Part shown: piece after piece, positions 11,278 through 15,066 of the stretch
Layout of the letters: each line of letters opens with the position of its first letter
Position numbering within the stretch: the stretch's first letter is position 1
DNA from: a candidate division Zixibacteria bacterium SM23_81
GTDB lineage: Bacteria; SM23-81
NCBI GenBank assembly: GCA_001304015.1
Contig: LJUY01000041.1
Location: forward strand, 1-24,919
Length of the DNA: 24,919 bases
Direction: 5' to 3'
Notes under the pieces: model-generated
Told to the model about the DNA's origin: nothing
The model's input: the letters and a program-made list of their open reading frames with translations, nothing else
Databases searched by the model: none
Position numbers and translations under genes: made by a program

Positions 11278-14553
<3,276 letters not shown>

Positions 14554-14557
<4 letters not shown>

Positions 14558-15066
14558 CCCTTGGCCAAAAGGCCGCTCAGATAGAGCTCCTTATCCTGGA
14601 CGTGGATGGCACCCTCACCAGGGGGGAGATCATCTTGGGCGATGAGGGAATGGAGCTGAAACACTTTGATACCCGCGACGGACTGGGCATCGCCATGGCT
14701 AGTCAAGCGGGCATTAAGGTAGCTATTATCACCGGAAGGGTCTCAGGGGCGGTGATGACTCGGGCTGGGGAGTTGGGAGTTAAAGATCTTTTTCAGGGGA
14801 GCATAGACAAATTGAAGGTATACAAAAGCCTTTTGAAAAGACATAATCTCACAGACCAACAAGTAGCCTTTGTGGGGGACGACCTGCTGGACTTGCCAGT
14901 CATGAAAAGGGTCGGTCTGAAGGTTGCGGTGGCCAATGCCAGTTGGGAGCTTAAAGCCTTAGCCGATTATGTAACTCTGGCCAGCGGAGGTCGGGGGGCG
15001 GTGCGCGAGGTCATAGACCTTCTTCTCGGCTGGAGAGAGACTAACACGTCGACCCTATTGGAGTGA
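14554..15066 (+). CDS. kdsC: KDO-8-phosphate phosphatase (HAD superfamily), with an apparent CTG start codon
   Basis: KdsC removes phosphate from KDO-8-phosphate. From the CTG at 14554 it has 170 residues, close to family size. The catalytic motif is LLILDVDGTLT with nucleophile D16 and D18. IITGR is motif II, K near the SIDKLK segment is motif III, and FVGDDLLDLPVM is motif IV. The first conventional start (GTG at 14602) begins inside the DVD motif and would delete the nucleophile, so it cannot be right. No ATG, GTG or TTG occurs between the in-frame stop at 14506 and 14602. Candidates are CTG at 14554 (overlapping the kdsA stop as CTGA, 13 nt after AGGAGG at 14535-14540) or ATC at 14548 (7 nt after it). 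The CTG gives the family-like N-terminus [18 protein letters not shown]. This is the second such case in the operon. Confidence 0.9.

Follow-up and report, generated by a model that had tools for sequence, protein, structure and literature searches.

A probable AUC start codon behind a strong Shine-Dalgarno sequence in kdsC of a Zixibacteria lineage

Here, we propose that the kdsC gene of candidate division Zixibacteria bacterium SM23_81 is probably translated from an AUC codon at position 14548, a near-cognate start that would be read by the usual initiator tRNA behind a strong Shine-Dalgarno (SD) sequence. Positions are those of the window, the whole stretch of DNA analysed, which covers contig C46 from its first base to base 24919, in an assembly of 3.07 Mb (99 contigs, 92.6% complete). 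We favour AUC because the gene has no usable canonical start, because the SD sequence and the ATC recur in a second genus, and because of the pattern of substitution between the two genera. The proposal is supported by pgpA (ATC in both genera), pyrG (CTG in both), infC and a glycosyltransferase gene, as these share the same architecture. Among the points against it are that near-cognate starts are very poor in Escherichia coli, that the feature was seen in two genomes only, and that the second genus has an in-frame GTG close to the catalytic site that could serve as a start. The AUC of kdsC most likely represents a near-cognate start with strong SD pairing, a kind that is already known and to which the genes described here would add new members.

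Reading frame and start candidates of kdsC

Direct reading of the sequence placed a TAA at positions 14506-14508 of the kdsC frame, which is then open from 14509 to 15063 and contains no ATG, GTG or TTG until the GTG at 14602. This GTG encodes the valine of the L-D-V-D-G motif, and the codon of the nucleophilic aspartate, GAC 14599, lies upstream of it. A start at GTG 14602 would therefore cost KdsC its nucleophile, and the N-terminus is left with no usable ATG, GTG or TTG. Both points, the absence of conventional starts back to the stop at 14506 and the loss of the nucleophile, had been made in the initial annotation of this DNA, and both were confirmed.

The gene product is identifiable as a KdsC phosphatase. 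At full length it covers positions 1-149 of the 154 in the TIGR01670 model with 179.6 bits (cut-off 106.95), it is the sole match above that cut-off in the genome, and its translation contains the DxD, TGR and GDD motifs. The score against PRK09484.1 was 187 bits, under that model's own cut-off of 208. ATG, GTG and TTG account for ~7% of the codons counted, and a run of 30 codons lacking all three has a chance of ~10%, which is unremarkable when taken alone. The missing canonical start is meaningful because the catalytic residue would be lost and because a second genus conserves the site. At the other readable KdsC loci, a canonical codon was present upstream of the motif in 26 of 26.

Table 1. 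Features of the kdsC and pyrG start regions, in window coordinates
Feature	Position	Strand	Remark
SD sequence of pyrG, AGGAG	12017..12021	+	Spacing 8; sister run 9 nt
CTG start of pyrG, overlapping the kdsB stop (CTGA)	12030..12032	+	Conserved in sister
pyrG (CTP synthase), stop included	12030..13718	+	TIGR00337, 808 bits; PF06418 position 1 = residue 9
kdsA, conventional GTG start	13715..14557	+	3' end overlaps kdsC 5' end
SD sequence of kdsC, AGGAGG, inside the kdsA 3' end	14535..14540	+	From sequence; 7-nt run to TAAGGAGGTG
kdsC (3-deoxy-manno-octulosonate 8-phosphate phosphatase), stop included	14548..15066	+	NCBIfam TIGR01670, PRK09484.1
ATC, most likely kdsC start codon	14548..14550	+	SD spacing identical in both genera
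CTG overlapping the kdsA stop, second-choice kdsC start	14554..14556	+	CTGA; codon conserved in sister, no overlap there
ATA, weaker alternative kdsC start	14581..14583	+	Aligns with the GTG of the sister; SD run only 4
GTG, first conventional kdsC start	14602..14604	+	Inside DVD motif

Three near-cognate codons of the kdsC frame were considered as starts (Table 1), of which the ATA at 14581 was an addition to the initial annotation. The ATC lies 7 nt after AGGAGG, or 8 nt from AGGAG, and was already thought to stand at the best distance from the SD sequence; this agrees with the spacing of ATG codons after AGGAG in the sampled part of the genome, where distances of 5 to 8 nt gave counts of 14, 28, 17 and 28. 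The CTG at 14554 shares the four bases CTGA with the kdsA stop (TGA, 14555-14557), and the reported parallel with the CTG of pyrG and the stop of kdsB is accurate, CTGA being read at both sites. From AGGAG to this CTG the distance is 14 nt, at which only 2 ATG codons were counted (background), and the CTG is thus outside the SD spacing of the ATG starts of this genome. A start at ATC would place 17 residues before the catalytic aspartate, and a start at CTG 15.

Elsewhere in the window, two related large alpha-amylase-like proteins are encoded by adjoining frames on the minus strand (1307-3916 and 4698-7262), the second of which (4698-7262) carries a YQNYPNPFN-type C-terminal tail that resembles a secretion sorting domain.

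Conservation of the start region and competing readings

Four genomes of the phylum were compared: that of the window (G000), one from the same family (G001) and two from another family (G002 and G003). G001, hereafter the sister, is the only other genome of the family in the comparison and belongs to a different genus, with a KdsC that is 73% identical. A search of public genome contigs yielded a single relative, which seems to be the G001 assembly itself. The putative ATC start of kdsC is carried by two genomes only. In G002 and G003, kdsC has an ATG or GTG start 18 residues before the catalytic aspartate.

The kdsC start region of the sister (locus L003) reads cactaaggaggtgtcaccATCggtCTGacc. 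It includes TAAGGAGGTG-TCACC-ATC, a perfect ten-base complement to the anti-SD sequence, and the distance from AGGAG to ATC is 8 nt, as in the window; a near-cognate codon at proper SD spacing is thus kept in both genomes of the family. A TAA within the sister SD sequence, in the kdsC frame, bounds the sister start to a few codons before the motif. The single GTG upstream of the motif in the sister lies six codons before the catalytic aspartate and aligns with ATA 14581. In the sister, 176 nt separate the TAG that ends kdsA (2629-2631) from the ATC at 2808, and the two genes do not overlap.

Substitutions between the two genera were counted by codon position. From the ATC to the codon before ATA/GTG, third positions differed in 6 of 11 cases versus 3 of 22 for first and second positions (Fisher p=0.03); from the ATC to the motif, the corresponding values were 11 of 18 and 5 of 36 (one-sided p=0.0006). 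The 11 codons before ATA 14581 are conserved as protein, with 9 of 11 residues kept and changes mostly at third positions, and no such pattern was found in the 11 triplets that precede the ATC. As the third-position pattern holds from the ATC onwards and not before it, the start of translation most probably lies upstream of ATA 14581. On this comparison, ATC 14548 appears to be the best candidate and most likely the start codon of kdsC.

The initial annotation had instead taken kdsC to start at CTG 14554, which ribosomes would reach directly after terminating at the kdsA stop that it overlaps. There is good documentation of termination-reinitiation where genes overlap as ATGA (PMC6728339), the CTGA overlap does exist in the window, an equivalent overlap in pyrG is shared with the sister, and the CTG codon of kdsC is itself conserved there. 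However, dependence on the stop overlap is contradicted by the sister, in which that codon has no overlap because kdsA ends far upstream, yet the strong SD sequence, the 8 nt spacing and the ATC are all retained; the NTGA arrangement is therefore kept between relatives for pyrG and not for kdsC. Together with the background-level spacing of this CTG and the lack of CTG enrichment at SD distance among the sampled genes (see below), these observations make re-initiation at CTG 14554 an unlikely account of kdsC.

A start further downstream, at ATA 14581 in the window and at the aligned GTG in the sister, would give a short KdsC that begins six codons before the aspartate. Some KdsC loci of other phyla (L017 and L029) have canonical codons only that near to the motif, and position 1 of TIGR01670 aligns there. 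Against this stand the SD run of merely 4 nt at that site and the location of the strong SD sequence, upstream of 11 codons conserved as protein, and we consider the short form quite unlikely.

Both family genomes are apparently metagenome assemblies, and a misread ATG, an assembly error or decay of kdsC into a pseudogene might be suspected. Such an explanation seems very unlikely, given that the assemblies of two genera agree on ATC in kdsC and on CTG in pyrG at matching positions, no frame is interrupted, the motifs are conserved and substitutions follow a purifying pattern, and pyrG, as a single-copy gene, must be expressed. The initial annotation had likewise judged sequencing error less likely, and the independent assembly of another genus, with the same arrangement, bears this out. 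Finally, a kdsA-kdsC fusion made by ribosomal frameshifting, which would need no start, could draw on the ten bases by which the kdsC frame overlaps the end of kdsA in the window, but is extremely improbable, as no slippery sequence was seen by eye at the junction and as the sister has its kdsA end well before kdsC and a kdsC-frame stop inside its SD sequence.

pyrG and the frequency of near-cognate starts

The start of pyrG has the same form in both genera, with a CTGA overlap with kdsB and an SD sequence at 8 nt, so the parallel drawn in the initial annotation was borne out. The GTG at 12078 would begin PyrG within its conserved motif. An ATC at 12024 was rejected as the start because the sister has GCC there. 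On sequence grounds, the re-initiation reading of the CTGA overlap fits pyrG, not kdsC. Outside the family, 1 of 28 readable PyrG loci lacked a canonical start; in this locus (L048 of G030, from another phylum), canonical codons are missing before TGGVLSSLGKG and an ATT lies 7 nt after AGGAG.

The search for further cases covered 507 predicted genes of G000 (712 kb, with the window), 288 of G001 (415 kb) and 220 of G002 (326 kb). A coding-potential scan alone was too weak (pyrG scored 2.8), and ortholog pairs and SD spacing were therefore added. Among 110 reciprocal-best pairs between G000 and G001, three had a conserved near-cognate start: kdsC and pyrG, both from the window, and pgpA (L197 in G000, L196 in G001). 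In pgpA, the two genomes have ATC at one aligned codon position, 7 nt after GGAG in G000 or AGGAG in G001, with SD runs of 7 and 7, and the G001 gene has 57 codons lacking a canonical start. A family-2 glycosyltransferase gene has an apparent ATT start behind a six-base SD sequence in G001 (L202), aligned with an ATC behind a weak one in G000 (L203). The infC gene has ATT in both the window's genome (L186) and the sister (L185), at a distance of 8 nt. More widely, infC in several genomes (L184-L189) showed a candidate ATT, ATA or ATC start after a strong SD sequence, as in other bacteria.

Several other candidates were rejected. L078+918 (ATT) has a strong SD sequence, and a conserved upstream protein was not shown; L092-19742 (ATC) is likely to be an antisense frame; the frames of L066-330 (ATA) and L142+5319 (ATC) scored low. 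In G002, L178-5981 on the minus strand has an SD sequence and ATT directly before FWGGEPLL in a radical-SAM-like frame, which is probably a truncated or frameshifted gene. For the ParB-, DUF502- and RibD-like pairs, upstream conservation reflected an overlapping gene or a canonical start.

The SD runs of kdsC, pyrG and infC, three genes chosen independently of SD strength, were 7, 5 and 7 nt in G000 and 10, 9 and 7 nt in G001; over all genes, the best canonical start had a median run of 4. A pooled rank test that included pgpA and the glycosyltransferase gave p=1.7e-5 and is partly circular, since those two were found via an SD filter; their SD strength is for that reason not independent evidence.

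In the sister, excluding the contig chosen for the finding, 2 of ~275 genes (0.7%, 95% interval 0.09-2.6%) had apparent near-cognate starts, and no convincing case was found in the G002 sample. The frequency is probably a lower bound, because a case can be detected only if the first canonical start lies deep in the gene or an ortholog was sampled. Near-cognate starts in the family are thus a conserved minority, roughly 1% of the sampled genes with a wide interval. At 5 to 8 nt after AGGAG, CTG was found at 17 of 1203 occurrences and ATC at 10 of 1221, compared with 380 of 34812 for all non-canonical codons and 87 of 1027 for ATG. No excess of CTG or ATC at SD spacing was found in the sampled genes, and neither codon is an ordinary start across the lineage. 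The earlier suggestion that a CTG overlapping a stop may be a usual start in this lineage was not supported by the count over 507 + 288 genes. The scan suggested with it, for genes whose conserved N-terminus extends upstream, did yield more cases in the sampled genes and the sister (pgpA, the glycosyltransferase and infC), but their starts are ATC or ATT, not CTG.

Proposed mode of initiation and significance

The initiation machinery showed no sign of alteration, either as another initiator anticodon or as a lost IF3. Each genome gave one match to an initiator-type tRNA, with anticodon CAU and three G-C pairs, a search that allowed two mismatches to the pattern found no initiator-like tRNA with a different anticodon, and IF3 scored above its family cut-off in both family genomes. 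We propose that the strong SD sequence 8 nt upstream would place this tRNA on AUC 14548 with a third-position mismatch, and that KdsC presumably begins with formyl-Met. By analogy with infC, we infer that initiation at the AUC would be weak and IF3-sensitive, and that the resulting low output would set a low level of KdsC within the operon. pyrG would likewise be translated from its CUG, possibly aided by coupling where this codon overlaps the stop of kdsB.

The best-known natural near-cognate starts are those of infC, which begins with AUU, AUA or AUC in other bacteria, and of a few regulators. The infC start is ATT in E. coli and ATC in Streptomyces (PMC5472188). kdsC resembles infC in having a probable near-cognate start after a strong SD sequence, conserved across genera. 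The infC product regulates its own gene, however, and there is no direct loop of this kind for kdsC and pyrG. CUG makes up 0.024% of bacterial initiation codons, with an output of ~0.9% of AUG (PMC11497404). In Staphylococcus aureus, AUU and AUA starts with extended SD motifs reach ~10-30% of AUG activity; the starts of cvfC1 (AUU), ccpN and citZ (AUA) are comparable in being non-canonical, with a conserved extended SD sequence for cvfC1 and ccpN, but they were established by ribosome profiling and reporters, and concern other genes in another phylum and codons other than AUC and CUG (PMC13009471). Streptomyces sigR, which has a GTC start under IF3 control, is a similar case of a non-canonical start missed by annotation, but is a regulatory gene for which IF3 repression was shown experimentally (PMC5472188). 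ATGA and TGATG stop-start overlaps with re-initiation are widespread, and the pyrG CTG and the kdsB stop share this 4-nt arrangement, with an SD sequence; here, however, CTG replaces ATG, and the sister kdsC site is kept with no overlap (PMC6728339). A search of the literature on kdsC or Zixibacteria together with start codons found no report of an AUC start in kdsC.

kdsC serves the synthesis of KDO, pyrG that of CTP and pgpA that of phosphatidylglycerol, all of them envelope precursors. It is conceivable, though distinctly improbable, that the AUC, AUU and CUG genes (kdsC, pyrG, pgpA and the glycosyltransferase) form one IF3-responsive group that limits these precursors, such that envelope synthesis would track the supply of initiation factor.

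Gene callers limited to ATG, GTG and TTG truncate or lose these genes, leaving kdsC with no nucleophile and pyrG starting inside a conserved motif. The short list of natural near-cognate starts would grow by the conserved AUC and CUG starts of enzyme genes, and such starts are detectable by comparison of two genera, with no need for experiments. If a frequency of ~1% holds genome-wide, this lineage would be suited to studying how the strength of SD pairing makes up for weak start codons.
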